64,000 nucleotides of DNA from Kineosporia mesophila (GTDB lineage: Bacteria > Actinomycetota > Actinomycetes > Actinomycetales > Kineosporiaceae), in NCBI RefSeq assembly GCF_021129235.1, contig NZ_JAJOMA010000006.1:259580-323579 (forward strand), written 5' to 3'. The notes beneath the pieces were generated by a model, which saw only the letters and a program-made list of their open reading frames with translations, was not told where the DNA came from and did no database searches. Below are positions 24,794 through 58,721 of this stretch, piece by piece (within the stretch, counting starts at the first letter, position 1; every line of letters starts with the position of its first letter). The translations under genes were made by a program, and so were the position numbers.

Positions 24794-24849
24794 GGCAGTT
24801 AATTCAAGACTCCTCACTAATCATGACTCCCACCCTGAAGGGGACCGCC

Positions 24850-26430
<1,581 letters not shown>

Positions 26431-26440
26431 AAAAGCTTTT

Positions 26441-26474
26441 CGGTGCCCGGCCGGCCTGAACCGGCCGGGCACCG
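26441..26474 (+). terminator. Terminator between chitinase and GH16 genes
   Basis: Perfect 14-bp inverted repeat CGGTGCCCGGCCGG / CCGGCCGGGCACCG with loop CCTGAA. It leaves only 45 bp before the GH16 start, so the second and third glycosidase genes either depend on readthrough or have a very compact promoter. Confidence 0.75.
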
Positions 26475-26519
26475 CTGACCCCCCAGTTCGTGAACCTTCC
26501 CTGAACAGGATCACCTCGC

Positions 26520-27986
26520 ATGTCACAGAAACGTCTTTCGCGTACGCGCCGGACGGCGGTCGTCGCCTCCGGAGCGGTCGCAGCGGCCGTGATGGCGGCC
26601 GTCGCCGTCGCGGTGCCGGGGCACAGTGCGCCCGCCTCCACGGTGGCCGCCTCGGCCGACGGCTTCAGCACGGTCTGGTCGGACGACTTCGATGGGACCA
26701 AAGGCACTTCTCCCTCGTCCGATAATTGGCTTTTCGACATCGGTCACAGCTATCCCGGCGGTGCCGACGGCTGGGGTACCGGTGAGATCGAGGAGATGAC
26801 CGACTCCACCGCGAACGCCGGCCTCGACGGCAACGGCAATCTGAACATCACTCCGGTCCGCGACGCGTCCGGCCATTGGACCTCGTCCCGCATCGAGACC
26901 CAGCGCACGAACTTCGCGGCCCCCGAGGGCGGTGTGGTGCGCTTCGAGAGTCGTATCCAGCTCCCGGATGTGATTGGCGATGAGGCGCAGGGAATCTGGC
27001 CCGCCTTCTGGTCGCTGGGCGAAGACTTCCGGGGCACGTACAACAACTGGCCGGGCATCGGCGAGGTCGACGTGATGGAGAACGTCAACGGCCAGAACAC
27101 CGTCTACGGCACGCTGCACTGCGGCACCGCGCCGGGTGGCGTGTGCAACGAGTCCACCGGCCGGGGCGGCAGCAGGACCGGTTTCAGTACCCGCCTGCAG
27201 AGCGGATTCCACACCTACGCGGTGGAACTCGACCGCAGCGGCGAGACCGAGGAGCTGCGCTGGTATGTCGATGGCGAGCAGTACCACACGGTCACCGAGG
27301 CCGAGGTCGGTGCGGACGTGTGGGAGAAGGCCACCGATCACGGCTTCTTCCTGATTCTCAACGTAGCTGTCGGCGGCGGCTGGCCGGGCAGCCCGACGAC
27401 GGCCACCGCGTCGGGCAGGCCGATGACGGTCGACTACGTCAAGGTGCTCCAGAAGGGCGGCGACACGAGCGGCTCGGACGAGGAGACGCAGGCACCCGAG
27501 CCCAGCGGAACGGCGACGACCGAACCGGCCGAGAATCCGACCACCGAACCGGTGACGTCCGAGGGTTCCGGTGAGGGCGATCGCGACGCCTTCCACACCA
27601 TCCAGGCCGAAAGCTTCGACAGTCAGACGGGTATCAAGACCGTGGCGACGCAAGACGGGGGCAAGAAGCTGGGTTCCATCGCGAACGGCGACCTGGCCGT
27701 GTACAAGGGCATCGACTTCGGGGACGACACGGCCCACACCTTCGTGGCCAAGGTCGCGTCGGGTGCGGACAACGGCGTGAGCGGCCTGATCCAGGTGCGC
27801 CTCGACAGCCCGTCGGCCGAACCGGTCGCCCAGATCTCGGTGGCGAACACCGGCGGCTGGGAGAAGTACAAGGCGGTGCCGGGCGAGCTGGCCAAGACCA
27901 CCGGCACGCACGACGTGTACCTGACCTTCACATCGGGCAGCACCCAGGAGTTCGTCGACGTGGACGCCTTCACCTTCAGCCGCTGA
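26520..27986 (+). CDS. Secreted GH16 beta-glucanase with C-terminal CBM6-like domain
   Basis: 488 residues. A basic N-terminus and Ala/Val-rich signal peptide (SQKRLSRTRRTAVVASG; possible Tat-like) precede a GH16 jelly-roll domain with the family motif EVDVME (nucleophile E182, acid/base E187) in WPGIGEVDVMENVNG. A Pro/Thr/Glu linker (about 320-355) is followed by a CBM6-like domain (IQAESFDSQTGI ... FVDVDAFTF). The laminarinase (endo-beta-1,3-glucanase) type fits best. It probably shares a transcript with the GH64 gene 23 bp downstream. Confidence 0.93.
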   Translation: MSQKRLSRTRRTAVVASGAVAAAVMAAVAVAVPGHSAPASTVAASADGFSTVWSDDFDGTKGTSPSSDNWLFDIGHSYPGGADGWGTGEIEEMTDSTANAGLDGNGNLNITPVRDASGHWTSSRIETQRTNFAAPEGGVVRFESRIQLPDVIGDEAQGIWPAFWSLGEDFRGTYNNWPGIGEVDVMENVNGQNTVYGTLHCGTAPGGVCNESTGRGGSRTGFSTRLQSGFHTYAVELDRSGETEELRWYVDGEQYHTVTEAEVGADVWEKATDHGFFLILNVAVGGGWPGSPTTATASGRPMTVDYVKVLQKGGDTSGSDEETQAPEPSGTATTEPAENPTTEPVTSEGSGEGDRDAFHTIQAESFDSQTGIKTVATQDGGKKLGSIANGDLAVYKGIDFGDDTAHTFVAKVASGADNGVSGLIQVRLDSPSAEPVAQISVANTGGWEKYKAVPGELAKTTGTHDVYLTFTSGSTQEFVDVDAFTFSR

Positions 27987-28008
27987 TCGAAAAGCTAGGA
28001 CGTAAAAG

Positions 28009-29163
28009 ATGCCGAACCTGAGTCGTCGCAATTTGTTTCTGGGTGCCCTCGGCGGTGGCGCGCTGGGTGCGGCCGGCCTGCTGGCCGTGCCGGAACTGGT
28101 GCACGCCGCGAACAAGCTCCCGCTGAAGATCGTGAACAGCACGGGCCGGTGGAGCAGCGACAAGATCTGGGTGCACATCGTCGGCACCGAGCTGTCGTCG
28201 GGGCGCATGGGCCACGTCAAGGCCCATGGCAATTTCGTGGCTGCCAGCCTGGCCGACAACGGCTCCAACGGCTACGCCACCTACGGAATGCGCCTCAGCT
28301 CGCTGAAGAGCATTCCGATGCCGAGGCTTTCAGGCCGGATCTACATCTCGATGGGCCAGCCGCTCAAGTTCAAGGTGGTGGGCAGCGGCAGCAGTGTCGG
28401 CATCCAGTACCCGGCGGGATGGGTGAAGACCGACCCCTCTTACCAGATCCTGCACGATTTCATGGAATTCACCTACGACGGTGGATTTCACACCAACACC
28501 ACGGCCGTCGACATGTTCGGCCTGCCGATGTACATCACGCTCACCGGCGCCCGGAAGCAGACCACCGGCCGGTTCGCAGCGGGATCCCGGGCCAAGGTCT
28601 TCGCCGAGATCCGCAAGCAGCCGGGCTTCAAGAAGCTGGCCATCGGGAACCTGCGCGTGATCGCCCCCAGTCACGGCCTGGACCGCGGGATCTTCTCGAA
28701 CTCCTACCTCGACCCGTACATCGACGCCCGGTGGGAACAGTACGCGTCGACGACGCTCACCGTGGTCGCGAACAATCAGACCTATCTGGGCCAGGTCGAG
28801 GGCTCGAAGCTGGTGTTCCGTCAGGGTGGCGCGATCAAGGCGAGTTTCGCCAAGCCCAGCACCCGTGACGTGCTGTTCTGCGACGGGGCGCTGAACGCGC
28901 CGAACGACGGGGTCGGCGGACCGATCGCCGCGGTGGTCGCGGCCGGTTTGAATCGCGGTGTGCTGCACCGGACGAAGCAGCCGATCAAGAACGATGACCT
29001 GTACTACCGTCCCGCGCGCACGAACCACTATGCCCGGATCCTCCACGAGCACACCGTTAACGGCAAGGCGTACGGCTTCGCCTTCGACGACGTCTGCGAG
29101 CAGGCCTCGTTCGTGACTGACCCGGCCCCGAAGAGCGTGACGCTGGCGCTCCAGGCCTTCTGA
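28009..29163 (+). CDS. GH64-family beta-1,3-glucanase, Tat-exported
   Basis: 384 residues. A twin-arginine signal (LSRRNLFLGALGGG) precedes a GH64 domain with GFHTNTTAVDMFGLPMYI, the most recognisable block of this family, and the C-terminal PIAAVVAAGLNRGVLHR and NHYARILHEHTVNGKAYGF. GH64 enzymes release laminaripentaose from beta-1,3-glucan and lyse fungal walls. An AGGACG Shine-Dalgarno precedes the ATG. The gene is close behind GH16 and ends at a terminator, so chitin and beta-1,3-glucan attack are grouped here. Confidence 0.92.
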   Translation: MPNLSRRNLFLGALGGGALGAAGLLAVPELVHAANKLPLKIVNSTGRWSSDKIWVHIVGTELSSGRMGHVKAHGNFVAASLADNGSNGYATYGMRLSSLKSIPMPRLSGRIYISMGQPLKFKVVGSGSSVGIQYPAGWVKTDPSYQILHDFMEFTYDGGFHTNTTAVDMFGLPMYITLTGARKQTTGRFAAGSRAKVFAEIRKQPGFKKLAIGNLRVIAPSHGLDRGIFSNSYLDPYIDARWEQYASTTLTVVANNQTYLGQVEGSKLVFRQGGAIKASFAKPSTRDVLFCDGALNAPNDGVGGPIAAVVAAGLNRGVLHRTKQPIKNDDLYYRPARTNHYARILHEHTVNGKAYGFAFDDVCEQASFVTDPAPKSVTLALQAF

Positions 29164-44524: not shown

Positions 44525-44821
44525 TCAGCCGGCCTGAGCCCGGCGGGCCTCGGCCTCTTCGGCGGCCCGCTTGGCCTCGGCCTCGGCGGCATTCTGGGCG
44601 GCCTCGCGGGCGTCCGCCTCGTCCTTCTCTTCCCATTCCTTCTCGTACCGGCTGATCAGGCCCATGATCAGCGAGGCGCCGATCGTGCAGAGCAGAGCGA
44701 CGAGGCACCAGCGCAGCAGAGCCGTGAAGCCGTCGAGACCGCCGCTCTCGTACTGGGCGTAGAGCGGCGGTCCCGCCAGCACGGCCGCGATCACGCAGCC
44801 GACCGGCAGAGGATTCGTCAC
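44525..44821 (-). CDS. Small membrane protein with charged coiled-coil tail
   Basis: Not recognised. 98 residues: two hydrophobic helices (PVGCVIAAVLAGPPLYA and CLVALLCTIGASLIMGLI), then a strongly charged helical tail rich in Ala/Glu/Arg (EKEWEEKDEADAREAA), probably a coiled coil in the cytoplasm. Its ATG overlaps the stop of the FlhF-like gene, so it is the last member of the flhA transcript and may act in flagellar assembly. It is convergent with nadE, 24 bp apart. Confidence 0.7.
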   Translation of the reverse strand: MTNPLPVGCVIAAVLAGPPLYAQYESGGLDGFTALLRWCLVALLCTIGASLIMGLISRYEKEWEEKDEADAREAAQNAAEAEAKRAAEEAEARRAQAG

Positions 44822-47800
44822 GAGTTCGCGCCACCCATGGCTAGCTGGGTGCAGAGCAGCGCCGCCCAGCCGACCCGGTCCACGCCGATCCCGTCGATCC
44901 GGACCACGGGCAGGCCGAGCTGCAGCACCGACGCCGGCTCGCCGGAATCGAGGGCACCGTCCAGTGCCACCGCGTCGACCTTGCCCAGATACCGCACCCA
45001 GCGCTGGTTCTGCTCCAGCGAACGGGATCCGTCGAGCACTGCGATCACTGCCTCAGCTCCTACGGTCTGCAGGACCTTACGGACCTTGCCGGCATCTTCC
45101 GTGTGGTCGCCGTCGACCGGCACGCTGACCACCACCGGACGGGTGATGGACACGAGATCCATGGCGCCGATCCGATCCGGACCCACCTCGTGCGGAACCG
45201 TGACAACCCTCCGCGGCTCCCCGTTGTGCGGCAGATCCAGTGCGGTGCGGGCGGCTTCGAGCCCGACAACGTCCGAGGGACCCACCACCGCAATCACCCC
45301 GACGTCGCCCGGGATCATCGGCTCGGGCATCGAGCCGAGCATCTGCACGACGGCCATGAACCGGTCACCGGCCTGAAGATTCGCCGTCCACTCCGGCGGC
45401 ACGCCCAGGTTGCCCAGGGCCGTCCGGTCGGCGGCCAGGGCCACGGCGGCGGTGGTCTGTTCGGTGGGCTCCGGCGCGACCGGGCTTTCCACGATTGAGG
45501 ACGTCGTGGTCGCCTCGTCCTCACCGGTCCAGTCGATCTCCGGCTGGGTGGACCAGACCGGGGACAGGCTCCAGTCGGTGGTGTCCAGGTCCGGTGTCCA
45601 GGGGTCGGTCAGCGGGTCGGCCGGTGCGGACGGCTGGGTCGGAATGGAGCCGAAACCAGCGGTCGATGAGGGAGCCGCGTCCTGCGCGGGCGACTCCGGG
45701 GTGGGCGACGGCTGAGGCTGCGTCGACCAGGTGATGCCCGACAGAGCATCGTCGGCCGAGAGCGCATCGGGAGCCGGGGGGACCGGAAGCGGCACCGTCG
45801 AAGCGGCCGAATCATCCTGCTCGGCAAGCAAATCCGGAACCGATCCAGGCATAGGCAGAGAAGCGGACGCCGTGTCGGCGGCCGAAGGTGCAGAGGACGC
45901 TACGGCCGGTTCGGTTGAGGTGCTGGTGGTGACATCGAAGGGGGAGCTGAACGGCGATTCGATGGTCGCGGGCGTGGCGTCGGACGGCGAGGTCTCGATC
46001 CCCGGGACCGAGCTGGATCCGGAATCCGCTGCCGGGCCGGGAACCGAATCCGGCAACGACGTAGCGGACGAACCGGTCAGCGCGTCGGCCGCCGCCGGTG
46101 AGACCGCCCCGGCCGTTGAACCGCGGGGAGAGGTGACCGCTGCACCCGGGTCCGAACCCGCCGATCCGGGCAGCGGGTCGGCCGTCGAGCCCTGAACGTC
46201 TCCACCGGTGGAGTTCGGGTCGGCGCCGTCGGCCAGTCCCGGAACGGGGTTGGCGCTGGACACCGGTTCGGAACCGTTGGTGAGGCCGGGGATGAGTTCG
46301 GTGGTGGAGCTGGCGATGTTGGTGAGGCCGGGGGCAGGTTCAGTGGTGGAGTCGGAGCCGTTGGTGAGACTGGTCATGGAGTCGGTGGTGGAGCTCGGGT
46401 TGGAACTGCTGACGAGCCCCGGGACGGTGTTGGTGTCCGGCTCCGAACCGTTCTTGAGTCCGGGGACAGTGGCACTGGTGGAACTGTCGCTGAATCCGGG
46501 GAAGGATTCCGGGGCGGAACCGGTGGCCGGAGCGGTGGCGAAACCCGGCACCGGGGCGCCGGCCAGAGAGCCGGGCCATGAACCCGAATCCGAACCCGGC
46601 GCGGTGCCGGACGGTGAATCGGCCGTCGAACCGGTCGCATCCGCGGGCGTTGAATCGGTCGCCGAACCGGTCGCCGAACCGGTCGCCGAACCGGTCGCCG
46701 AACCGGTCGCCGAACCGGTCGCCGAACCGGCCGTCGACTCAGCAGCTCCGTCGGTCGCCGGGCCAGGAGCCGCAGTGGCGGTGGCGTCCGACGCCGGGCC
46801 GGGCATCGTGTCGGAGAACGAGCCGGGCGGTGTGTCAGTCGTTGATACGGTGATGGAACCGGGAACCATTTCGGACAGCGAGCTGGGCGCTGTGCCCTTG
46901 GCCGAGCCGGTCGCCGTGTCGGCGAACGAACCCGGGGAGGGGTTCGTGGCCGTGTCCGTGGGGGCGCCCGTTGCTGGGGTTTCGGGGGTTGGGGTTTCTG
47001 GGGTGGCCGAAACGGCCCAGGCAGCCGTTGCTTCGGCCGGGGAGGCCCAGCTCGAAGTGGGGCCCTCGTCGGGTGTCCCCGGCGCGGGAGCCGCGGGTGC
47101 GGGCCATTCCGGGCTGGTGTTGGCCGGGGTGGTGGCCCAGGTCGACGTGGTGTCCGTCTCCGCGCTGGGGGCGCTCGGCTGGGTGGGGACGATGGGCTGG
47201 GCGCTCATGTCCGGGGTTCCGGAGGCCGGGTCGGATCCGGAAGTCGTCTGCGCGGAAGGGGTCTGGTCGGTCGTGGTCGTCTGGGCGGTCAGGACCGAGT
47301 GTGCTGCCGCGAGCTCGCCGGCGGCCGCGGCCGCGCTCGCCCGGGCCGCCATGATCTCCCAGGCGGGGGGTTCTTCGAGGGCGGCTTCGGTGGAGGATTC
47401 CATCCGCGGGGTCGGCACGGCCGGGGCCATCGGGATCGGGGCCACCGGGGCGGCGGTCTCTTTCTGAGGCTCGTCCTTACTCTTGGTCTTCTTGCGCCCG
47501 CCCAGGCGGATGCCGAAAACCTTTATACCGGATTTAATGTCGGCCTCCGGAGTAGCAGTGCTGCGAGCGGCGCTGACCGGCGTGGGCGCTGCGGTGCCGT
47601 CAGCCGGCGTGCCCAGCGTCGGGTCGGTGCCCGGGCCGGTGTGCCGCGCGTGGCTGCGGTCGCGGCGCGGGCGGTGCCGGCCACTGTCGTCGGTGGTGGT
47701 CTCGGTGGATGTGGCATCCGCCGACGCGGTCGCGCCCGGTGTCGCTGCCGGGCTCGGCGCTGAGGGGGCGCTCGGAATCGGTGCGGCGTGGGTGACCCGG

Positions 47801-50448
47801 AAAGAGGGAGCAGGCATGGCGGTAACTTCCGGCGTCTTTCGCTGAGTTGGCTCGTTCTTCTTGGAGCGTCGCGACTTTGCCTTGGGCAGAATAGTTGTCG
47901 CCCGGGGAGCGGTCGCGGGAAGGTGGGACAGGTCCGGGCCGCCAGCGGGTCGGGCCGTCGTCGGCGCAGACGGGTCGGATCCGGTGGCCGGGGTCTGCGT
48001 CGTGAACGCCGAGGGCGGCGTCGCGAACTGCTGACCGGATTCCTGGCCGGATTCCTGGGCCGGCTGACCGAACGGGTGGCTGAACGGGGACGGCCGGCCC
48101 GGCTCACCGAACTGCTGAGCCGGAGCGGGCTCCTGGCCGGACACCTGCGCCGGCTGACCGAACGACTGCGGTGCCTCGAACGACTGCGGTGCTTCGAACG
48201 ACTGCGGTGCCGTGAACGGTGAAGGCCCGCTGAACTGCTGGCTCGGCTCGGCCGACGGCTGCGTACCGAACTGCGGCGTCTCCGGCCCGGCCTGCTTACC
48301 GAACTGCGGCGTCTCCGGCCCGGCCTGAGCGCCGAACTGTCCGGCCTGCGGGGCGTCTGCACCGGGCGCCGGGGCCGGCTGAGCGAAAGGCGTCGCCTCG
48401 GGCTGAGGCGCGGGAACCGCGAACTGCGGCGTGGTCGTCTCGGGCGAGCCCGGCTGAGCGGGAATGGCCGCCACCGGGCCGGCGGGGGCATCCGGGCCGG
48501 AGACCGGAGCTCCCCACTGCTGGTCCTGGGTGTCGGTGTTCCCGCCGACCGGCTCGTCCCATCCTCCGATGAGGGTGATGGGCTCCGCCGGAGCAGGAGC
48601 TGCCGCAGGGGTCTCGGCCCAGGGTGATGCGGCGGTCGGCTCAGGAGCGGTCAGCGGACTGTCCCACTCGACCGCGGGCTTGAGGGCAGGCGTGGCCGGA
48701 GCCAGGGTCGCAGCCCCGGCCCACGAGGCAGCCGCGTCATCGGCCGTGGGGGCTACCGCCGGCGTGGGGGCTACCGCCGGCGTGGGGGCACTGGTCTCCC
48801 GGGTTGGCCCGGTCGGATCCGCCCATTTCGCCAGGAGTTCAGCCTCCGGGTCCGGTGATCCCGGGAGTGCCGCAGCGACCGGAGCCGGCCCCGGAGCCGG
48901 GACGTCCGGTGTGGCCGTGCCCGCAGCGACCGGAGCCGGCCCCGGAGCCGGGACGTCCGGTGTGACCGTGCCCGCCCGGGTCTCGTTCTCGTCCGGTGCA
49001 GCAGCCTGCTTCGGGGAGCCGGAGGGGGTCCGCGCCGATTCGTCCGCACCAACCGACCCGGACCCGCCGGAGCGAGCCCGTGGGGGCAGCGGGAGAAGCT
49101 TCGGGATTTCCCTCACGGTCGATGGATCGGAAGGAACACCGTCCGTGTTGAGGGGGAGCGCCCCGCCGGTCTGAGCAGGCTGTCCCCCGGACGGCGGCAG
49201 ATCCGTCATCTCCACCCGGATGCCCGGCCGGGAGTCGGTCATCAGGGCACCGGGAAGCGCGGCCCGGCGGGAGAAGTTCTTGCTGGCAGGCAGCGTCAGG
49301 TTCTGGGCAGCCGGCCGGCCCGCGGCCCCGGGCGTCGTGCCTCGCGGGCGGGCCCACGCCGGCCGCAACCGGCTGAAGTCCAGGTCGTCGCCGCCCCGGG
49401 TCTCCACGGTCAGGCTCTCCGGGATCTCGATCTGCTGCGGAGTCGTTGGTTCAGTCAGGTCGACGGGGGTGGTGCGGCCAATGGTGGACGAGGATGTCCT
49501 CCCACCGGCATCGGTCACCTCGGTGCGGATACCGGCGGGCGGGGTGGTGATGTCGACGGAGGTGAGGACCTCGACGGTGGGGAGCTGAGGGGCGCGGTGG
49601 TTCTCCGCCTTCGCTGCCGCCGTACGCCGCCGCGCTGCCGCCTTGGCCGCCTTCGCCCTGCTCTTGCGGGCCGCCTTGGCCGCCCGCTGGACGTGGATCT
49701 CCTCGGCCCGGGCGGCGATGCGGGCCGCGCGCTCCTCGATCTCCCGCTCCTCGGCCTCGCGCCGCTCGATCTCCCGCCCCTCGGCCTCCTCGTCCACCTC
49801 GTCCGGCTGGGACTCGGCGTTCGCGTACTCCTCTTCCCAGTCGTCCCACTCCGCCTCGTCCTCGGCGAACTCGCCGGGGTCCGCGGGTGCTGCCGGACGG
49901 GAGAGCGGCAGGCCCCGGCCCGTCGGCACCCGACGCTCGGGTGGTCGTCCACTGCTCGTGGACCGGCTGGCGGGATACCCGCCGTTACCGAGAATCTCCG
50001 TCAGATCGAGCGTCTCGCGAACTTCGTCCTGACCGTAGGGGTCGAACGACGGCCCCCGGCCACCCCGGGGAAGGCCGAGGCCCAGGATCGGCATGCGCTC
50101 GTCCGAGGCCATGGCCGCCTCGAACGCCGCCTGCCGGGCCATCGCCAGAGTCGCGGTGTCTTCCTCGGCCGACTCGTCCCGCGCGCCGGCCTGGCGGGCC
50201 AGGGCGAGCAGGTCGCGGTAGCCGGAGCGCTCCTGGCGCAGCGGAACGGCGGGCAGCGCGAGCTCCTCGTCGTCGAGCCCGTCACCGGGCACCTCGACGG
50301 CGACCTCGAAGCCCTCTTTCGCGAAGAATCCGAGAACGCCACCGCGGCGCACCTTCTCCGCCCGCACGATCCGGGCGAACGGGCCACCCTCGTGACGTGC
50401 CCGCATGAGCAGCGCCTCGAGGTCGTCACCTTCAAGCAGCAAATTCAT
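44818..50448 (-). CDS. Giant FlhF-like protein with degenerate GTPase domain
   Basis: 1876 residues, directly after flhA with a 17-bp overlap. Residues 1-55 resemble the FlhF N-terminus (REVRRGG-like block AEKVRRGGVLGFF, then VAVEV). A charged helical segment follows near 205-290. Residues of about 300-1640 are Pro/Ala/Ser/Thr-rich with repeats: (GSAT)6, duplicated TPDVPAPGPAPVAA, and QSFEAP copies. The last 197 residues have an SRP-GTPase-like alpha/beta pattern (VIAVVGPSDVVGLEAARTAL ... VDAVALDG ... LGLPVVRIDG). The P-loop GxxxxGK[ST] is lost (GPSDVVGLE near 1723) and the TKLD nucleotide motif is replaced. A GTPase-dead, greatly expanded FlhF relative is my inference; FlhF normally has about 400 residues and sets flagellar number and position. 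Confidence 0.75.
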   Translation of the reverse strand: MNLLLEGDDLEALLMRARHEGGPFARIVRAEKVRRGGVLGFFAKEGFEVAVEVPGDGLDDEELALPAVPLRQERSGYRDLLALARQAGARDESAEEDTATLAMARQAAFEAAMASDERMPILGLGLPRGGRGPSFDPYGQDEVRETLDLTEILGNGGYPASRSTSSGRPPERRVPTGRGLPLSRPAAPADPGEFAEDEAEWDDWEEEYANAESQPDEVDEEAEGREIERREAEEREIEERAARIAARAEEIHVQRAAKAARKSRAKAAKAAARRRTAAAKAENHRAPQLPTVEVLTSVDITTPPAGIRTEVTDAGGRTSSSTIGRTTPVDLTEPTTPQQIEIPESLTVETRGGDDLDFSRLRPAWARPRGTTPGAAGRPAAQNLTLPASKNFSRRAALPGALMTDSRPGIRVEMTDLPPSGGQPAQTGGALPLNTDGVPSDPSTVREIPKLLPLPPRARSGGSGSVGADESARTPSGSPKQAAAPDENETRAGTVTPDVPAPGPAPVAAGTATPDVPAPGPAPVAAALPGSPDPEAELLAKWADPTGPTRETSAPTPAVAPTPAVAPTADDAAASWAGAATLAPATPALKPAVEWDSPLTAPEPTAASPWAETPAAAPAPAEPITLIGGWDEPVGGNTDTQDQQWGAPVSGPDAPAGPVAAIPAQPGSPETTTPQFAVPAPQPEATPFAQPAPAPGADAPQAGQFGAQAGPETPQFGKQAGPETPQFGTQPSAEPSQQFSGPSPFTAPQSFEAPQSFEAPQSFGQPAQVSGQEPAPAQQFGEPGRPSPFSHPFGQPAQESGQESGQQFATPPSAFTTQTPATGSDPSAPTTARPAGGPDLSHLPATAPRATTILPKAKSRRSKKNEPTQRKTPEVTAMPAPSFRVTHAAPIPSAPSAPSPAATPGATASADATSTETTTDDSGRHRPRRDRSHARHTGPGTDPTLGTPADGTAAPTPVSAARSTATPEADIKSGIKVFGIRLGGRKKTKSKDEPQKETAAPVAPIPMAPAVPTPRMESSTEAALEEPPAWEIMAARASAAAAAGELAAAHSVLTAQTTTTDQTPSAQTTSGSDPASGTPDMSAQPIVPTQPSAPSAETDTTSTWATTPANTSPEWPAPAAPAPGTPDEGPTSSWASPAEATAAWAVSATPETPTPETPATGAPTDTATNPSPGSFADTATGSAKGTAPSSLSEMVPGSITVSTTDTPPGSFSDTMPGPASDATATAAPGPATDGAAESTAGSATGSATGSATGSATGSATGSATDSTPADATGSTADSPSGTAPGSDSGSWPGSLAGAPVPGFATAPATGSAPESFPGFSDSSTSATVPGLKNGSEPDTNTVPGLVSSSNPSSTTDSMTSLTNGSDSTTEPAPGLTNIASSTTELIPGLTNGSEPVSSANPVPGLADGADPNSTGGDVQGSTADPLPGSAGSDPGAAVTSPRGSTAGAVSPAAADALTGSSATSLPDSVPGPAADSGSSSVPGIETSPSDATPATIESPFSSPFDVTTSTSTEPAVASSAPSAADTASASLPMPGSVPDLLAEQDDSAASTVPLPVPPAPDALSADDALSGITWSTQPQPSPTPESPAQDAAPSSTAGFGSIPTQPSAPADPLTDPWTPDLDTTDWSLSPVWSTQPEIDWTGEDEATTTSSIVESPVAPEPTEQTTAAVALAADRTALGNLGVPPEWTANLQAGDRFMAVVQMLGSMPEPMIPGDVGVIAVVGPSDVVGLEAARTALDLPHNGEPRRVVTVPHEVGPDRIGAMDLVSITRPVVVSVPVDGDHTEDAGKVRKVLQTVGAEAVIAVLDGSRSLEQNQRWVRYLGKVDAVALDGALDSGEPASVLQLGLPVVRIDGIGVDRVGWAALLCTQLAMGGANS
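46656..46731. repeat. Tandem 12-bp repeat (about six copies) inside the FlhF-like gene
   Basis: Units of CGGTCGCCGAAC follow each other without spacers and encode (GSAT)6 on the minus strand. Such perfect repeats are prone to slippage but, being 12 bp, keep the reading frame. Confidence 0.9.
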
Positions 50449-52510
50449 GACTACTACTCACCTGTCCGACGGTCTCGATCTGGTGAATGCCGGTCGCCTC
50501 GGTGAAGGCAATGACGGGCAACTGGGGCAGCGAGCCACGCAGCAATCGCCGCATCGGCAGTCGCAGAGGTCCGGATATGAGGAGGACCGGCAGCTCACCA
50601 CGCTGTTCGGCAGTGGTCTGGAGGGCGGATATGTCCGAGACCAGGCGTTGCGCCTGGACCGGGTCGAGCGCGATGACCACACCCTGCTCACCGGCTCTCA
50701 GCGCCTCGCCGATCTGGGTCTCGACGGCGGGTTCGAGGGTGATGGCACGCAGTACCCCGTCCCGCACGTAGTGCGCGGCGAGGGCCGGCCCGAGCGCGGC
50801 CCGGGCGGCCTCCAGCAGGGCGTCCGGATCGCTGGTGGAGCGGGCCCGCTGGCCCACACCCTCCAGGACCCGGCCGAGGTCGCGGATCGAGACCTGCTCG
50901 TCCAGCAAGGCCTGGAGCAGACGCTGCACCGCCGCGAGCGGCAGCACGCTGGGCACGAGTTCCTCGACCGCGGCCGGCCGGTCGTTCTTGAGCACCTCGA
51001 GCAGGTCGCGGGTGTCGTCCAGGCTGAGAAGACGGGACGCGTTCTGGCGCACCATCTCGGCGAGGTGGGTGGTGACGACGGCGGCACGCTCCACGATCGT
51101 GGCGCCGGCCAGCTCGGCCGAGGCGCGGTACTCGATCGGCACCCAGACGGCGGGAAGACCGAACACCGGCTCGGTGGTGTGACGGCCGGGCAGGCTGTCC
51201 ATCGAGTCGCCGATCGCCAGCAGGTGCCCGGGCGGGGCCTCGCCGGTGGCTACGCTGCTTCCACCGATCCGGATCTCGTAGGTGCCCGGTGCCAGCATCG
51301 CGCCGTCCCGGGTCCGCACCGGGGGCAGCACCAGGCCCAGGTCCAGGGCGGTCTTGCGGCGCAGGGCCCGCACCCGGTCGAGCAGGTCGCCACCGCGGGC
51401 GGCGTCCACCAGGTCGACAGCGTCGGGGGAGAGCAGCAGTTCGAGAGGATCGACGCGGAGCGAGTCGGTGACCGGGTCGCCGGTACCACCGCCGGCCGGC
51501 AGCTGAACCTGGCCGGACGGCATCGCGATCGCGCCGCTCTGGGCGGCGGCCTCGGCCGCCATGTCGTCGCCGTGGGCGTCGGTGGAGCGGTAGGCCACGA
51601 AGAGCACCAGCCCGCCGACGATCAGGAACGGGAGCTTGGGCATGCCCGGGACCAGACAGAGGGCCAGCAGCGAGCCGGCACCGATCATCAGGGCCTGACG
51701 GTGGCGTCCGAGCTGCTGGATCAGGTCGCTGCCGACGTCACCGGCGCCGGTCGAGCGGGTCACGATCACACCGGTCGCCACCGACATCAGCAGCGCGGGG
51801 ATCTGCGAGACCAGACCGTCACCGACGCTGAGGAGGGCGTACTTCTGGATCGACTCACTGGCGCTGAGACTGTTCTGCAGCATCCCGATCGCGAAACCAC
51901 CGACCAGGTTGACCATGGTGATGATGACCGCGGCCATCGCGTCGCCCTTGACGAACTTCGTGCCACCGTCCATGGCGCCGTAGAAGTCGGCCTCGGCCGC
52001 GACGTCCTTGCGTCGCTGGCGGGCCGTGTCCTCGTCGATCAGGCCGGAGTTCAGGTCGGCGTCGATCGCCATCTGCTTGCCCGGCATGGCGTCGAGGGTG
52101 AAGCGGGCCCCGACCTCGGCGACGCGGGAGGCACCGTTGGTGACGACGGTCAGCTGGATGATGATCAGGATCGCGAAGATGACCAGACCGATGATCAGGT
52201 TGGCCCCGATCACGATGTGGCCGAACGCGTCGATCACGTGCCCGGCGAAACCGTCGCGCAGTACCAGCCGGGTCGAGCTGACGTTCAGCGCCAGCCGGAA
52301 GATGGTGGCGACCAGCACGATGGTCGGGAAGATCGCGAAGTCGAGCACGCGCTGCACCTGCAGCGCGACCAGCAGAACGATCAGGCTGATGCCGATGTTC
52401 AGGGCGATCAGGATGTCCAGGAGGGCGGCCGGCAACGGCACGACCATCATGAGGACGACGAGCACGATCGCAATGGGTACGGCGATACGGGTCATCCGGT
52501 TGGACGGCAC
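50432..52510 (-). CDS. flhA: Flagellar export gate protein FlhA
   Basis: 692 residues, normal FlhA size: eight membrane helices in the first 300 residues with FRLALNVSSTRLVL and GIMDGAMDGGTKFVKG-type loop (FYGAMDGGTKFVKGD), then a cytoplasmic export-substrate docking domain. FlhA forms the nonameric ring of the flagellar type III export apparatus. The frame is open further upstream, but GTG 52510 has a perfect GGAGGT Shine-Dalgarno (52518-52523) seven bases before it. A sigma-28-type promoter lies about 115 bp upstream. It starts a separate transcript from flhB, unlike many bacteria where flhB-flhA are adjacent. Confidence 0.96.
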   Translation of the reverse strand: MPSNRMTRIAVPIAIVLVVLMMVVPLPAALLDILIALNIGISLIVLLVALQVQRVLDFAIFPTIVLVATIFRLALNVSSTRLVLRDGFAGHVIDAFGHIVIGANLIIGLVIFAILIIIQLTVVTNGASRVAEVGARFTLDAMPGKQMAIDADLNSGLIDEDTARQRRKDVAAEADFYGAMDGGTKFVKGDAMAAVIITMVNLVGGFAIGMLQNSLSASESIQKYALLSVGDGLVSQIPALLMSVATGVIVTRSTGAGDVGSDLIQQLGRHRQALMIGAGSLLALCLVPGMPKLPFLIVGGLVLFVAYRSTDAHGDDMAAEAAAQSGAIAMPSGQVQLPAGGGTGDPVTDSLRVDPLELLLSPDAVDLVDAARGGDLLDRVRALRRKTALDLGLVLPPVRTRDGAMLAPGTYEIRIGGSSVATGEAPPGHLLAIGDSMDSLPGRHTTEPVFGLPAVWVPIEYRASAELAGATIVERAAVVTTHLAEMVRQNASRLLSLDDTRDLLEVLKNDRPAAVEELVPSVLPLAAVQRLLQALLDEQVSIRDLGRVLEGVGQRARSTSDPDALLEAARAALGPALAAHYVRDGVLRAITLEPAVETQIGEALRAGEQGVVIALDPVQAQRLVSDISALQTTAEQRGELPVLLISGPLRLPMRRLLRGSLPQLPVIAFTEATGIHQIETVGQVSSSHEFAA

Positions 52511-52990
52511 GGGGGCGACCTCCGACAGCAGGGCAGGTTGGATCTGTGTGAGGGCGGGCGCCTCACTCACGCATGAGGGTGAATCCGTTGCCCCGCGATT
52601 ACGCCATCCGTGGCTGTTGCTCACATCGGCGGAGCCTGGGTGGGACTTGAGGCGGGCACGGCGTTCTGCCATCCGGGGGATATCCGGGCCGATCTGCGCG
52701 GCCGGCCGTCACCCCTGGGTTGCCTACCGTCTACTGACTGTCAAAGGCTTTGCGGGGCGGGCCTGCCCGGCCTGACCGCCGAACGTGCCGAGCGTGAAAT
52801 GCGGCGTATTTTATGGTGAAGTGGCTGCTATCACTGTCGAAGCGGAGCAAAATAGACTCTGCTCGGCTGCCTGACACCAGACACCTGTTCCAGCCTCCGT
52901 ACCCGACGACGTGTGCGTGCGCGTAGGTGAATGATGTCCGTATCCGTAATCGTTCCAGCACTTTTAGCACCGCCTCGGCGGAGGTCTCGA
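52511..52990. other. Divergent regulatory region between flhA and the small + strand gene
   Basis: 480 bp with no convincing gene. It holds the candidate sigma-28 promoter for flhA (52624-52651) on the minus strand. Towards the right it becomes AT-richer (52790-52860), where the promoter of the small plus-strand gene should lie. Confidence 0.45.
52624..52651 (-). promoter_or_regulatory. Candidate FliA (sigma-28) promoter of flhA
   Basis: Minus strand CTCAA (52651-52647), 16-nt spacer, GCCGATG (52630-52624). The same motif and spacer as the promoter candidate before cheA. It would give a leader of about 105 nt before the flhA start. Confidence 0.65.
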
Positions 52991-53207: not shown

Positions 53208-53843
53208 TCACGTTCGGGCGGGGAGACTGCGGACCAGCTGGGCGTGCACGTAGAGCCGCTCGGCGGCGGAGAACTCGGGGTGACAGGTGGTCAGGGTGAG
53301 CCAGGCCCGGCCCTTGGCCGTCTTCTGCTGGACGACCGAGATGTCCGACGGATCGGTCACTCCCTCGCTGAGGACCGAGTAGTCGAACCTTCCGCGTACC
53401 GTCCAGACCTGGATCACGTCGCCGGGCCGGAGCTCGTTGATCCGCCGGAACGGTGCTCCCCAGGTGGTGCGGTGCCCGGCGATGCCGACGTTGCCCCGTC
53501 GTCCCGGCTGCGGACTGCCCTCGTACAGGCCCAGCCCCTGCCGCAGGATGTCGGTCCCGGTGCCGGGTTCCACCGGCATCCGCCAGTCCTGGCCCAGCCG
53601 CGGGATGCGGACCACGGCGACCACCGGCCCGGCCACCCCCTTCGGGATCACTGCGGTCTCGGGTCCCTTCCCGGCCGGGGACGTCCAGGCCCGGGTCGCG
53701 CGGTCGGCCAGACCGTGCGCGGTGGTGCCGGCCTTCCAGTTGGTCCACCACCAGCCGCCACCGACGCCGGCGATCAGCATCACGCCGGCGGTCAGGGTCA
53801 CGAAACCGATGAGGCGGACCCGCGAGCCGCGGGTCCGCCTCAT
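53208..53843 (-). CDS. Class E sortase
   Basis: 211 residues: cytoplasmic basic N-terminus, one membrane helix (VRLIGFVTLTAGVMLIAGVGG), and a catalytic beta-barrel facing outward. Active-site residues are H124 in IAGHRTTWGAPF, C187 in TLTTCHPE and R196 in AERLYVHA, the class E pattern. Class E enzymes of actinobacteria cut LAxTG signals and join proteins to peptidoglycan. ATG 53843 is preferred to GTG 53852, which lies within the AGGAG Shine-Dalgarno. It lies 45 bp after the TIG-repeat gene, which carries an LAFTG signal and is the obvious substrate. Confidence 0.93.
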   Translation of the reverse strand: MRRTRGSRVRLIGFVTLTAGVMLIAGVGGGWWWTNWKAGTTAHGLADRATRAWTSPAGKGPETAVIPKGVAGPVVAVVRIPRLGQDWRMPVEPGTGTDILRQGLGLYEGSPQPGRRGNVGIAGHRTTWGAPFRRINELRPGDVIQVWTVRGRFDYSVLSEGVTDPSDISVVQQKTAKGRAWLTLTTCHPEFSAAERLYVHAQLVRSLPART

Positions 53844-53888
53844 CGTCGTCACTCCTGCATCCTTCCAGTTCCTTCGGTACGCGACTGG

Positions 53889-56800
53889 TTACGCCACGTC
53901 GTCAGGGACGTGGAACTGGGTCTCGCCGTCCTTGCGCTGCGCGTCGAGATCACTGCCGGCCAGGCCGGCCGGCATCAGCAACCGCCCATCCTCGTCGAAG
54001 GTGCCGAGGTTGTCGTGGTCGTCGTCGGAACCCGGCTGCCAGGAGCTGGCGGTCCGGCGCATCCGCAGGCGCTCGGCGCCGAGCAGACCGGTACCGAGCA
54101 GCATCAGCAGCAGGCCCAGGGCCAGACCGGGGATGAGCAGCACGGGGGTACCGGTGAAGGCCAGGCCGCCCCCGGTGTCGTTGCCGCCGGCCCCGCCACT
54201 GCCGCTGCCATTGCCACTGCCGTTGCCGCTGTCATTGCCGTCACCGTTGCCGGTGTCGTTGCCGCCCCCGCCTCCGGAGCCACTGCCGCCGCCGTCACCG
54301 TCGCCGGTGTCGTTGCCGCCGCCACCCCCGCCGCCGGTGCCGCCTGCCTCGACGACCGTGACCTCGACCGTCTGCTCCGAGGTCTGGCCGAGGTCGTCGA
54401 TCACCGACATCACGAAGGTGTCGTCGCCGAGCTCGTCCGCGGCCGTGTAGACACAACTCTTACCGCTGTCCGAGATCCTCGTGGAACCGAGCCCGTCCGG
54501 CGTGGAGCAGGCGGCCACCTCGATGCCCGAGTAGCCCGGGCCCCGCGGCGCGATCGCCTTGCTGGCCCCGAGGGCCACGTCGGTCCGGATCGTCACCGTC
54601 GCGGCGAGCACCGGGATGAAGGTGAAGGACTCCACGAAGCTGATCGAGCCCGCCGAGTTCGTCACCGTCACGGTGGTGGGCCCACCGACGTGCGGCGGCG
54701 TGTTCACCGTCAGCACGTTGGAGGCCGCGGCCTTCCACCGGCTCAGCGCCTGGCCGGCCACCTTCGGGCGGTAGGCCTGGGCCTTGGTGTGGTTGTCCCG
54801 GGTCGGGCTTCCCAGCTTGCTCTTCCTGGAAGCCTTCTCGAGACCGACCGAGGGGTTGTCCACATCGGCGCCGAGCCTCAGGTTGGTCCCCTGCACCCCG
54901 TCGAAGGCGACGGTGGTGGAGTCGTCGAACCCGGTCCCGCCGATCGTGACCCGGGTGCCACCGGTCACCGGCCCGACGTTCGGCGTCAGCGTCTGCACCG
55001 TCGGCAGCCCGGTGAGCGGTACGTAGGTGAACAGGTAGGAGCTGCTGGTGCCCTGCGGGTTACGCAGCAGCACGGCGATTCCCCCGGCCGCGTGGGCCGG
55101 CGTCTTCACCGACAGCGTGGTGTTGCTGATGAGCGTGAGGTCCAGGCCCTCGACCCCGTCGAACGTCACCCGGTCCACGTTCTGCAGCCCGAGCCCCCGG
55201 AATACCACCGTGGTACCGCCGGCGGTCGGTCCGCTGCGCGGCGTCATGCTGTCGACCATCGGCACGCTGTTCGCGGCGACGTAGGTGAACTCCGAGGCGC
55301 TCGCCGCGGTACTGCTGCCCACCGGTGTGGTCACGATGACGTTGACCGGGCCGACCGCGTGCGCCGGTGACGTCGCGAGGAGCGTAGTGCTGTTGATCAC
55401 CGTGACGTTCGTGGCCGTGGTGCCCCCGAAGCTGACACCGGTGGTCGTGAGGAACCCGGTGCCGTAGATCGTCACCTGGGTTCCGCCGTCGACCGCGCCC
55501 ATACTCGGCACCAGGGCGGTGACCGTCGGCGAGACACTGGCCGGAAGGTAGGTGAACAGGCCGGTACCGGTGCCCTCGACGTTGCCCGTACCGACCACGA
55601 CCACGTCCACCAGGCCGGCCGCGTGCGACGCCGTGGTCACGGTGATCTGGGTGCCGGCGCCGTTCACGCTGAACGCCGTACCCGCTGTACCGCCGAACCG
55701 GACCCCGGTGGCTCCGGTGAAACCGGTACCGGTGATCGTCACGACCGTGCCACCGCCTGCCGGACCGGAGATCGGCGAGACGCCGGTGATTTCCGCGTCG
55801 AAGGCGACGTAGGAGTAGTTCAGCGTGACGACGCCGCCGGCCGTGGCGATGATGACCGGGACCGGGCCCGAGGTCAGGCCGGCCGGCATGGTGAAGGTGA
55901 TCTGGGTGTCACCGGTGACCGTGTAGTTGGTGATGACGTTGGCGCCCACCGTCAGCGCCAGGAGCGAACTGAACCCCGTACCGGTGATGGTGACCTGGTT
56001 GCCACCCTGGATCGGGCCGCTGGGCGGTGCGACCGTGGCCGGGCCGGCCGCGTTCGGTGTGTAGACGAACGTGCCCGCGGTGGTAGACGCACCGCCCGGC
56101 CCCAGGAGGGCCACGGTGTAGGCGCCGGCGTTGTTCGGCGGGGAGTCGAACTTCAGCGCCGATGCCGTGCTGCCACTCTTCGGGTTCACGGTCCTGGTGC
56201 CGACCTGGACCGACGTGACCAGGTTGAGATCGCTGCCCGTCACCGTCACCTCGGTGCCGCCGCTCACCGGTCCGGTGATCGGGCTGATGCCGGTGGTCGT
56301 GGGAACCGGGTTGTAGGTGAAGTTGGTGCTCGTGCTGGTCACCGATCCGGTCTTGACCCTCACCCCGATGGTGCCGGCCGAGCCGGGCGGGGTGGTGACG
56401 CGAAGAACCGTGGGGCTCACGTACTCCGTGCTCAGCGCGGTGTTACCCCAGTAGACGACGGACGACGAGGTGAAGTTGGTGCCGTTCACCGTCACCGTCG
56501 TACCACCGGTTGCCGGGCCGTTGTCCGGGGTGAGGTTCCCGATCGTGGGCGTCGCCGCGATGTACGTGTAGGTGCTGTCCAGGCTGACGAGGCTCGTTCC
56601 GCTGGAGTTGGTGACGGTCACCGGCACGACGCCCGGGGCGTCCCCGGCCGGGGTGGTGACCGTGATCGACGTCAGCGTCGGGGTCCCGACCACCGTGGCG
56701 TTGTTGTTGCCGAACTTGACGGTGGTACCGGTCAGGGTCACGAAGAGGCCCTGCAGCGTGACGGTGTCGTTCCCGGCGATCGGCCCGCTGTTCGGGCTGA

Positions 56801-58721
56801 CCGAGGTGATGGCGACGACGCCCGGCACCGGGATCGTCGGGGCCGGGTCGGCGAAGAGGAAGGTCCCGGCCGGGGTGGTGCCGCTCGGGCTGATCAGCGT
56901 CACCGCCGTGGCCCCGGCGGCGTGGGCCGGGGTGTTGAAGGTGATGCTCGTGGCCCCGACGGCCGGGCCGGCGACGGCCGCACCGTCGATCCGGACCTCG
57001 GTGACGGCATCCAGGGCGGTACCGGTGACGGTCACCGCGGTGCCACCCGCCGTCGTCCCGGTCACCGGGGTCATCGTGGTGACGACCGGGATGGCCTGGT
57101 AGGTGAAGGTCCGCGCGGCCGAGGTGTCAGAACCACGCTTGACCGTGACCGGCACACCGCCTGCCGCTGTCGTCGCTGGGGTGACCGCGGTCAGCTTCGT
57201 GGGACTGACATAGGTGGTCGCCACCGTGGTGTTGTCGACGGTGATCTGCGAGTCGGTGGTGAACCCGGTGCCGGTGGCGGTGATCGTCGTGCCACCGGTG
57301 ATCGGGCCGGACGCCGGGCTGATGCTGCTCAGACCCAGGGCGTCCTGGTAGGTGTACGCGGTGGCGGCACTCGCCGCCGACGTCCCCCCGTTGTTGGTGA
57401 CCGTGACGAACACGGTGCCGGTGCCGGCCGGCGCGGTGGCCGTGATCGAGGTCGGGCTGTTGACCGTCACGTTGGTGGCGTTCGCGGTACCGAACTTCAC
57501 GGTCGGGGCTCCCACCCCGGCGCCGCTGAAGCCCGTTCCGGTGATGGTCACCGACGTGCCCCCGTTCGGTGAGCCTCCCGAGGGAGCCACGTTGGTGACC
57601 GTCGGGGCGCCGACGTAGGCGAAAGTGTTCGTCCCGGTGCTCGCGCCGCCCGGCGCGGGGGTCGTCACGACCACGTTCGCCGCACCGGCCGAGTGAGCGG
57701 GGGCGGTCGCCGTGATCTGCGTGGTGCTGTCGATCGAGTAGCTGGCGGCGACCCCGTCGAACTCGACCTTGGACGTGCCGCGGAAGTTCGAGCCGGTGAT
57801 CACGACGCTGGTGCCGCCGGTGGTCGGCCCGGTGGCCGGGGCGAGCCCACTGACCGTGGGCACGAGGGCGTTGGTGGTGGAGCACTCCGTGTGGCCGGCG
57901 ATCACGTCACCGGCGCCGACGGCGTCCAGAAGACCGCCGTTGCCGCTGAGCCGCAGGTGAAGGGCATTGGTGACCAGCCTGGTCCTGCCGGCCGTGGTCG
58001 TCCGGACCTGCTCGTTCAGAGTCAGTGCACCCAGGTTGGCCACGTTGAGCACGGTGTTCGGAGCTGGACGCTCGGGGGTCGAGCTCGCGACGCCGGAGAG
58101 CTTCAGCCCGGTGAGGGTGGCCGTGGCGCTCACTCCCGAGGCGTCGCCGGTGCACTGCGACGAGATCAGGTCGGCGGAGACACCCTGAAGACCCAGCACG
58201 GTGCCCAGGCCGAGCTTGTCGACCGCGGAGGTCGCGTTCACCGTGTCCTTCAGATCCTCGCCGTTGGCGGCCACGGTGGCCGTGCCGCTGCTCAGGACCC
58301 CGGAAACTCTGACGTTCGCCGTGGTCGCGGTCGCCGGACCAGCAGGCCAGTCCGCCTTCGGCGTCTGCTCGGTGCCGACCGCGGACGCCCCCAGAAGCTT
58401 CACGCCGGCGAACAGGCCGTAGGCCGACGCGGCGGTAGAACCGTCGGCGGCAGCCTTGAAATTCCTTGCACCAAGCTCTTCTTTGCTCTTCGACGGCTTC
58501 CCCACCGTCGAGTGCGCGAAAGAGACCGGGGCCGCCGACCGAACCGGGCCGGTCGTCAGTGTCGCGGCCGAAGCGGAGGCAGCGGCCAGCGGCAGCCCTC
58601 CGCCGGCGACGAGAAGGCCGGCGACGACCTGCGCCACCCCTCGCCTGTTCCGGAAGCGGTGACAGCCACGTAAAAATGGCCTCCCGCCCGGGTTCGTACG
58701 GTTTCGTGTCAAGACACGCAT
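53889..58721 (-). CDS. Giant TIG-repeat surface protein with LAFTG sorting signal
   Basis: 1610 residues: long basic signal peptide (cleavage after ASA near 52), a unique N-terminal domain (about 53-285), then 12 IPT/TIG Ig-like repeats (about 285-1371) built on P-x-SGP-x-x-GGT-x-V-T-I-x-G-TGF. The twelfth is interrupted by a basic insert of about 50 residues (KASRKSKLGSP). A further beta domain and a Gly/Asn/Asp/Ser-rich spacer precede LAFTG (1520-1524), a membrane helix and RMRR. Unusually, 54 more residues follow as an acidic cytoplasmic tail (DDDHDNLGTFDEDGR). Predicted cell-wall adhesin attached by the adjacent sortase. It lies between flhB and flhA. Confidence 0.9.
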   Translation of the reverse strand: MRVLTRNRTNPGGRPFLRGCHRFRNRRGVAQVVAGLLVAGGGLPLAAASASAATLTTGPVRSAAPVSFAHSTVGKPSKSKEELGARNFKAAADGSTAASAYGLFAGVKLLGASAVGTEQTPKADWPAGPATATTANVRVSGVLSSGTATVAANGEDLKDTVNATSAVDKLGLGTVLGLQGVSADLISSQCTGDASGVSATATLTGLKLSGVASSTPERPAPNTVLNVANLGALTLNEQVRTTTAGRTRLVTNALHLRLSGNGGLLDAVGAGDVIAGHTECSTTNALVPTVSGLAPATGPTTGGTSVVITGSNFRGTSKVEFDGVAASYSIDSTTQITATAPAHSAGAANVVVTTPAPGGASTGTNTFAYVGAPTVTNVAPSGGSPNGGTSVTITGTGFSGAGVGAPTVKFGTANATNVTVNSPTSITATAPAGTGTVFVTVTNNGGTSAASAATAYTYQDALGLSSISPASGPITGGTTITATGTGFTTDSQITVDNTTVATTYVSPTKLTAVTPATTAAGGVPVTVKRGSDTSAARTFTYQAIPVVTTMTPVTGTTAGGTAVTVTGTALDAVTEVRIDGAAVAGPAVGATSITFNTPAHAAGATAVTLISPSGTTPAGTFLFADPAPTIPVPGVVAITSVSPNSGPIAGNDTVTLQGLFVTLTGTTVKFGNNNATVVGTPTLTSITVTTPAGDAPGVVPVTVTNSSGTSLVSLDSTYTYIAATPTIGNLTPDNGPATGGTTVTVNGTNFTSSSVVYWGNTALSTEYVSPTVLRVTTPPGSAGTIGVRVKTGSVTSTSTNFTYNPVPTTTGISPITGPVSGGTEVTVTGSDLNLVTSVQVGTRTVNPKSGSTASALKFDSPPNNAGAYTVALLGPGGASTTAGTFVYTPNAAGPATVAPPSGPIQGGNQVTITGTGFSSLLALTVGANVITNYTVTGDTQITFTMPAGLTSGPVPVIIATAGGVVTLNYSYVAFDAEITGVSPISGPAGGGTVVTITGTGFTGATGVRFGGTAGTAFSVNGAGTQITVTTASHAAGLVDVVVVGTGNVEGTGTGLFTYLPASVSPTVTALVPSMGAVDGGTQVTIYGTGFLTTTGVSFGGTTATNVTVINSTTLLATSPAHAVGPVNVIVTTPVGSSTAASASEFTYVAANSVPMVDSMTPRSGPTAGGTTVVFRGLGLQNVDRVTFDGVEGLDLTLISNTTLSVKTPAHAAGGIAVLLRNPQGTSSSYLFTYVPLTGLPTVQTLTPNVGPVTGGTRVTIGGTGFDDSTTVAFDGVQGTNLRLGADVDNPSVGLEKASRKSKLGSPTRDNHTKAQAYRPKVAGQALSRWKAAASNVLTVNTPPHVGGPTTVTVTNSAGSISFVESFTFIPVLAATVTIRTDVALGASKAIAPRGPGYSGIEVAACSTPDGLGSTRISDSGKSCVYTAADELGDDTFVMSVIDDLGQTSEQTVEVTVVEAGGTGGGGGGGNDTGDGDGGGSGSGGGGGNDTGNGDGNDSGNGSGNGSGSGGAGGNDTGGGLAFTGTPVLLIPGLALGLLLMLLGTGLLGAERLRMRRTASSWQPGSDDDHDNLGTFDEDGRLLMPAGLAGSDLDAQRKDGETQFHVPDDVA
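54150..54164 (-). other. LAFTG sorting motif codons
   Basis: The five codons for L-A-F-T-G of the class E sortase signal, residues 1520-1524 of the TIG-repeat protein, 86 residues before the stop. A membrane helix and four basic residues follow at the expected spacing. Confidence 0.85.

Follow-up and report, generated by a model that had tools for sequence, protein, structure and literature searches.

A FlhF-derived protein without a P-loop beside flhA in Kineosporia mesophila and related actinobacteria

The gene and its terminal domains

The DNA analysed here, a 64,000-nucleotide stretch of the Kineosporia mesophila genome (the window; contig NZ_JAJOMA010000006.1, positions 259,580 to 323,579), carries an uninterrupted open reading frame (ORF) of 1,876 codons that begins with ATG, its start overlapping the end of the flagellar gene flhA. 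Its product has the domain order of FlhF, the switch protein that places flagella: a FliG-interacting domain (FID, or B domain), a linker, and an NG domain with the predicted fold of the signal recognition particle (SRP) GTPases. Sequence comparisons suggest a finding of phylum scale, in which a switchless FlhF descendant persists where FlhF had been reported missing and has been greatly enlarged in one genus. Coordinates are collected in Table 1.

The frame stays open in all five genus members compared (the window and L034–L037, L034 being Kineosporia rhizophila), with proteins of 1,873, 1,876, 2,061, 2,072 and 2,368 residues. Ratios of nonsynonymous to synonymous change (dN/dS), from NG86 counts between the window and its four congeners, two of which (L034 and L037) are close to saturation at synonymous sites, are 0.05–0.18 for residues 1–60, 0.47–0.51 for the linker and 0.11–0.45 for the C-terminal domain. 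The linker values therefore indicate translated but weakly constrained sequence, and residues 1–50 share a mean identity of 94% with the congeners. Five open frames and these ratios rule out a frame or assembly artefact.

At the N-terminus, the NCBIfam FlhF model TIGR03499 matches residues 6–98 with an E-value of 8.9e-5 for the first 160 residues and 0.0091 for the whole protein; the score of 22.6 bits does not reach the cut-off of 174.15. The model also matches 20 of 22 related N-terminal domains at E ≤ 1 (best 5.7e-8). AlphaFold2, using 48 aligned rows (alignment A3, a subset of the available N-terminal domains), predicts a beta-alpha-beta-beta fold with a local confidence score (pLDDT) of 83.6. 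The best Foldseek match in the PDB is 9en1, the FID of Shewanella FlhF (probability 1.00, target template modelling (TM) score 0.84, root-mean-square deviation (rmsd) 1.3, E 0.13), and its chains account for 8 of the 50 matches listed. A PDB sequence search with the N-domain profile gave no match under E 0.34. Sequence and predicted fold together point to an FlhF-type FID in residues 1–55, which would bind FliG; FliG is present in the genome.

The C-terminal domain was modelled by AlphaFold2 from 24 rows with pLDDT 93.2 and a predicted TM score of 0.88. Foldseek against the PDB returned 1,765 matches at E ≤ 10, with 99 reaching E ≤ 0.001, and the best 50 of the 1,765 are all SRP-GTPase entries by title, including the FlhF structures 8r9r (rank 5, E 1.3e-7) and 2px0; the listed matches span at least 254 alignment columns with gaps. 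Single-model searches are less telling: NCBIfam gave no match at E ≤ 10, Pfam gave a chance-level hit (E 0.38), and a PDB sequence search with the domain profile found 7uek ('OT3') at E 3.4e-4 and SRP or FtsY chains at E 2–3.3. Profile-profile comparison with intact actinobacterial FlhF reached a probability of 73.6 (E 2.9e-5), a score reached by 0 of 199 column shuffles and not by the single reversal, and six non-SRP proteins of the window, compared as single sequences, scored 0.1. A chain through intermediate proteins, described below and run without a shuffle control, is tighter. The C-terminal domain matches 7 of the 16 P-loop-keeping intermediates at probability 94.8 (E 5.3e-8, 192 columns), and those seven match intact FlhF at 99.9 (E 1e-35). 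Its match to the f38 intermediates is weak (6.0), and these match intact FlhF at 96.4 (E 1.1e-9).

Motif patterns were taken as G....GK[ST] for the P-loop (G1), D[TP][FY]R for G2, DTAG for G3 and TK[LMT]D for G4, the last three being FlhF patterns that are also seen in the intact locus L141. None occurs anywhere in the 1,876 residues, and hhalign places GPSDVVGLE, from residue 1723, on the P-loop of intact FlhF. From structure prediction and profiles, the C-terminus is thus a predicted NG domain of SRP-GTPase fold that lacks the P-loop, G2, G3 and G4 motifs (a pseudo-NG domain). A preliminary description, made from the sequence alone, had proposed an FlhF-like N-terminus and an SRP-GTPase-like C-terminus without P-loop or TKLD. 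Both proposals are borne out by the fold matches, which are best to FlhF FID and SRP-GTPase NG structures respectively, and the profile comparison with FlhF agrees.

FtsY and Ffh share the NG fold, as the top Foldseek matches illustrate; both are active as GTPases and have no FID. The genome (G000, 7.78 Mb, with the window on contig 56) carries two strong SRP54-family genes outside this locus, which are taken for FtsY and Ffh. The pseudo-NG domain matches them at probabilities of 1.0 and 6.3, in an uneven comparison that sets single sequences beside the alignment used for FlhF. An origin as a paralogue of FtsY or Ffh was rejected because of the FID and the position beside flhA.

The linker is rich in Ala (17%), Pro (15%), Thr (12%) and Ser (11%). 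The earlier label of a "giant repeat linker" holds for its length and low complexity; "repeat" overstates it, since Tandem Repeats Finder (TRF) arrays cover about 0.7 kb of its 4.8 kb and leave it only slightly repetitive. Between congeners, mean identity over residues 1151–1500 is just 0.14–0.27 per 50-residue block.

Distribution and motif erosion across the phylum

Among 149 genomes surveyed from the order, 26 have relatives of the C-terminal domain, counting the window genome. Among the 26 loci fetched (L034–L059), 21 hold both a C-domain ORF and flhA, and the two are neighbours in all 21. Across 345 genomes of the class, the N-terminal domain was found in 28 and flhA in 43, with both in 27; the 28th N-domain match (G197) is weak and lacks flhA. 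Loci were fetched for 23 of the 27 (L118–L140), where the gene lies beside flhA in every case and a P-loop is found in none. The remaining four comprise three genomes already included (G000, G001, G125) and one with a cut locus (G553, L154). Inspection of the 16 class flhA loci without an N-domain match revealed no recognisable gene beside flhA in 15; the other (L161) has an ORF judged FlhF-like by eye and cut by the contig end. Among 396 phylum genomes, 58 have the N-terminal domain, adding 39 newly fetched loci; in 37 of these it follows flhA in the same orientation, no more than about 540 bases away. The order, class and phylum draws overlap.

The survey of the gene after flhA thus yielded FlhF relatives without a P-loop at 63 loci, and the window gene shares the flhF-like position. 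These flhA-adjacent counterparts are mostly 250–650 residues long. The preliminary description knew of no counterpart of this size, which stands for the great length and needs correction for the shorter forms found in many relatives. As a side observation, a csrA-like start lies at most 50 bases after the FlhF-like gene in L133–L135, L138 and L140, and in L160, where the FlhF-like gene is missing, one follows closely after flhA.

Loci were sorted into three sets. The intact set comprises 11 deep-branching loci (L141–L151), fetched from 11 of the 15 genomes above the TIGR03499 cut-off, the intermediate set has 16 loci, and the P-loop-less set consists of the window and 62 others, 45 from the window's class (the window and L034 included) and 18 sharing only its phylum. 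Motif counts leave out loci cut by a contig start (L040, L042) or end (L154, L161, L210, L226, L235, L246, L247), those without a C-domain match (L051, L057, L058) and FID-like matches without flhA (L244, L245); the cut L243 was kept among the intermediates and L227, just 246 residues long, among the P-loop-less. In the intact set G1, G2, G3 and G4 occur in 11, 10, 11 and 11 of 11 loci, and 10 have all four. The intermediates retain G1 in all 16, G2 in none, G3 in 2 and G4 in 4. The P-loop-less set (n = 63) has no G1, G2 or G4, and G3 in 2 by pattern.

An NG-type C-terminal domain is detectable in 47 of the 63 P-loop-less loci. Twelve others (L214, L215, L219, L221, L223, L225, L228–L230, L232, L233, L242; eight belong to f32 or f63) combine an FlhF-type N-terminal domain with a C-terminal part that NG profiles do not recognise (best probability 6.7, E 0.005), and this part may be an NG domain that has eroded further, or something that has taken its place. 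The greatest reduction observed is in two loci of f101, L131 (plus strand, about 3561–4394, 278 residues) and L132 (minus strand, 250 residues), where the N-terminal domain lies beside flhA and no NG domain was detected.

The partner gene follows the same pattern. An flhG-like ORF is present in 11 of 11 intact loci, in none of the 14 intermediate loci with enough downstream DNA (L220 and L243 have too little), and nowhere in the fetched DNA of the P-loop-less loci scanned. FlhG encoded elsewhere in the window genome was considered and rejected, as a whole-genome search gave only distant MinD/ParA-like matches (best E 5e-10, 25% identity). Whole-genome searches of two intermediate genomes (G224, G352) and eight P-loop-less genomes likewise returned only distant MinD-like matches; three genomes of the intact set, including the one that supplied the query, gave matches at E 1e-69 or better. 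The earlier suggestion of a cell without polar FlhG control agrees with what is recognisable at the locus and in the genome.

Mapped onto a 111-row FlhA tree, P-loop presence or absence requires one change and gene absence three. A mixture-model tree of 106 rows, with five long-branch rows dropped, gave the same counts; both come from a quick search with SH-like approximate likelihood ratio support (SH-aLRT) only and a midpoint root, L053 lies outside the tree, and 9 of the 111 rows have no state. The P-loop was presumably lost and not gained, because FlhF of other phyla has it. The preliminary description had placed the loss of the GTPase here; as the tree reads, the change is on an old branch common to many families and is neither recent nor unique to Kineosporia. 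The sequences suggest a series running from intact FlhF with FlhG, through proteins with a P-loop and no G2, to proteins without a P-loop, then to an N-terminal domain without detectable NG, and finally to loss of the gene.

Deep-branching actinobacterial FlhF share the phylum and domain order of the window protein and lie beside flhA in every one of the 10 loci, out of 11, in which the fetched DNA includes flhA; they differ in their G motifs and flhG-like neighbour. Kineosporia's class is, we assume, one of the later classes of a 2023 survey. The available portion of that survey, which ran BLAST from Salmonella or Bacillus queries with an E-value limit of 1e-5, gives FlhF as absent from the later, FlgFG-less actinobacterial classes (PMC10746217). 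The accessible part of a flagellar gene table for Kineococcus radiotolerans lists flhA (1673) and then csrA (1677), with none between (PMC2587704). No report of a P-loop-less FlhF was found in a search limited largely to open-access papers, most of them screened from listings of matches.

Length separates the Kineosporia proteins from the others. From the start of the FID, the median is 378 residues (373–455) in the intact set, 404.5 (340–622) among intermediates and 452 (246–2,367) in the P-loop-less set. Only five P-loop-less proteins exceed 1,100 residues, all from the Kineosporia group; the next, of 1,025 and 794, belong to the same family. Linkers of the group span about 1,600–2,100 residues and differ by about 500 within the genus. 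The enlarged linker is peculiar to Kineosporia, and the great size is seen only in this genus.

Separately, a short motif, F-x-x-[LVIMF]-[LM]-x-x-[LIVMQ] shortly after S/D/T/R, was seen in 26 of the 63 P-loop-less linkers (window, L034–L059, L118–L140, L209–L242), against a mean of 0.36 and a maximum of 3 of 63 in shuffled linkers. It was fitted by eye on the same, non-independent sequences, and is absent by pattern from the Kineosporia group.

Coordinates and neighbouring genes

Table 1. Features of the FlhF-derived gene and flhA, in window positions
Feature	Position	Strand	Basis
Whole gene, FlhF-derived protein without P-loop, 1,876 aa	44818..50448	-	ORF, translation, congeners, dN/dS
N-terminal domain, FlhF FID/B type (predicted), residues 1-55, beta-alpha-beta-beta	50284..50448	-	TIGR03499, AlphaFold2, Foldseek
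Low-complexity Pro/Ala/Ser/Thr linker, residues 56-1659	45472..50283	-	composition, dN/dS (residues 61-1660), TRF
Conserved linker island, residues 101-150	49999..50148	-	mean identity 0.82 to 4 congeners
Conserved linker island, residues 401-450	49099..49248	-	mean identity 0.75 to 4 congeners
Moderately conserved linker island, residues 951-1050	47299..47598	-	mean identity 0.55 and 0.63, 4 congeners
Pseudo-NG domain (predicted SRP-GTPase fold), residues 1660-1876	44818..45471	-	AlphaFold2, Foldseek, profile-profile matches
Site of missing P-loop, residues 1723-1730 GPSDVVGL, end of strand beta1	45259..45282	-	hhalign against intact FlhF
flhA	50432..52672	-	Pfam FHIPEP E 1.6e-236; overlaps gene by 17 bases

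Two further gene groups were noticed in the window. Between flhB and flhA (53208–58721, minus strand) are a sortase gene (53208–53852) and a gene for a 1,610-residue protein, which has 12 TIG/IPT stretches and carries LAFTG and then a hydrophobic segment close to the C-terminal end; this is possibly a sortase-anchored surface protein within the flagellar cluster. At 24823–29163 (plus strand), three adjacent genes encode a glycoside hydrolase of family 18 (GH18) with a carbohydrate-binding module (CBM5/12), a GH16 with CBM6, and a GH64 beta-1,3-glucanase, which look like a fungal-wall or glucan-degrading set.

Possible function and rival explanations

Compared with FlhF of Shewanella, Vibrio, Pseudomonas and Bacillus, the window protein shares the order of FID, flexible linker and NG, the predicted folds and the gene position after flhA. 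Unlike them, it lacks the P-loop, G2, G3 and G4 and a recognisable FlhG, and has the linker described above; in the parts available of one paper, whole FlhF measures 366 residues in B. subtilis and 505 in V. alginolyticus (PMC7226244). Excerpts of the Shewanella work describe a FID placed first, whose first 60 residues suffice for FliG binding, and an uncharacterised linker to NG. There FlhF acts as a tether, its FID holding FliG and its NG domain the pole protein HubP, and keeps FliG away from FliM/FliN, and the authors' model has FlhG-stimulated hydrolysis let assembly proceed (PMC11236974). For P. aeruginosa, the accessible text reports that FlhF with B and N and without the G domain gives non-polar flagella in about 65% of cells, and that NG or G alone gives none. 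Its FlhF–FliG complexes form with no nucleotide added or in the presence of a GTP analogue and are disturbed by GDP, and its authors conclude that GTP binding is important for complex stability (PMC12713375).

Because of these precedents, an FlhF that has a FID but an inert NG domain could go on binding FliG and promoting assembly without the release that GDP triggers; alternatively, it could bind FliG less firmly. By analogy, we think it reasonably probable that the gene product is an FlhF working independently of GTP, whose FID binds FliG and which promotes or anchors assembly of the basal body. The N-terminal domain would have FliG of the nascent MS/C-ring as its binding partner, and NG would serve as a nucleotide-independent docking or self-association module. 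Assembly would then be promoted or anchored constitutively, without an FlhG-driven GTP/GDP cycle. In Kineosporia, the enlarged linker would most likely lengthen the reach of the tether or carry extra short binding segments. The preliminary description had offered a tether, ruler or scaffold; a tether or scaffold role for the giant protein is plausible, given the Shewanella tether described in the available part of that study (PMC11236974), and the ruler falls away as discussed below.

Several observations weigh against a GTP-independent FlhF. The FID fold match reaches only E 0.13, and no Foldseek match for this short domain is at or below 0.001. The NG fold match is moderate, with a query TM score of 0.53–0.70, an rmsd of 4.4–9.1 Å and 11–18% identity, and an NG-type domain went undetected in 16 of the 63 P-loop-less loci (the twelve by hhalign, L227, L240, L131 and L132). 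No recognisable gene was found beside flhA in 15 of the 43 flhA-bearing class genomes, so flagellar genes can be retained in its absence. The pseudo-NG domain may also bind nucleotide weakly through a non-canonical site.

The strongest form of doubt is that the protein is a decaying vestige of little function, left after FlhG and the GTP cycle were lost, with a linker growing by unconstrained slippage. The 15 class genomes without a recognisable gene, the undetected NG domain in L131 and L132, and the fast-evolving linker of variable length (dN/dS about 0.5) suit such a relic. It is nonetheless unlikely, given the 94% identity of residues 1–50, the low dN/dS at both ends (0.05–0.18 and 0.11–0.45) and a gene that stays beside flhA across a tree with three losses. 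A residual switch, in which the pseudo-NG domain binds nucleotide non-canonically, would fit a predicted fold kept under purifying selection and the nucleotide-sensitive FlhF–FliG binding described in the accessible P. aeruginosa text (PMC12713375); as the P-loop, G2 and G4 patterns are missing from all 63 loci and the genomes checked have no FlhG-like gene, we regard it as quite improbable.

The two remaining explanations concern single parts of the protein. Extreme length in all five genus members might suggest a ruler or spacer whose fixed length determines how flagella are spaced, but congeners differ in length by about 500 residues (1,873–2,368 in all), and the low identity of residues 1151–1500 adds to this; the variation counts against a fixed-length ruler, which was rejected, and makes any ruler very improbable. 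The C-terminal domain could instead be a generic Rossmann-like domain with no relation to SRP GTPases that was recruited beside an FlhF-like N-terminal domain; this reading would agree with the missing Pfam and NCBIfam matches, the moderate direct profile match to intact FlhF (73.6) and the marginal SRP/FtsY hits of the PDB profile search. It was ruled out by the SRP-GTPase titles and long gapped alignments among the best 50 of 1,765 fold matches, the profile chain (E 5e-8 and 1e-35) and the controls at 0.1, and is scarcely credible.

The GTP-independent FlhF can also be carried further, into a speculative and on balance doubtful picture. A flagellated actinobacterial clade would long have used a GTP-free, FlhG-free FlhF for flagellar placement, and in Kineosporia the protein would have become a very long scaffold, disordered and multivalent, whose FID and linker motifs bring FliG/FliF nuclei together so that motile spores bear a flagellar patch.

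Vibrio and Campylobacter GTPase mutants disagree on which FlhF functions need GTP, according to the portion available of the paper (PMC7226244). The P-loop-less proteins may serve as a natural experiment on the FlhF functions that require GTP. The erosion series would mark the FID as the most persistent part of the protein, and its role with FliG is directly testable.

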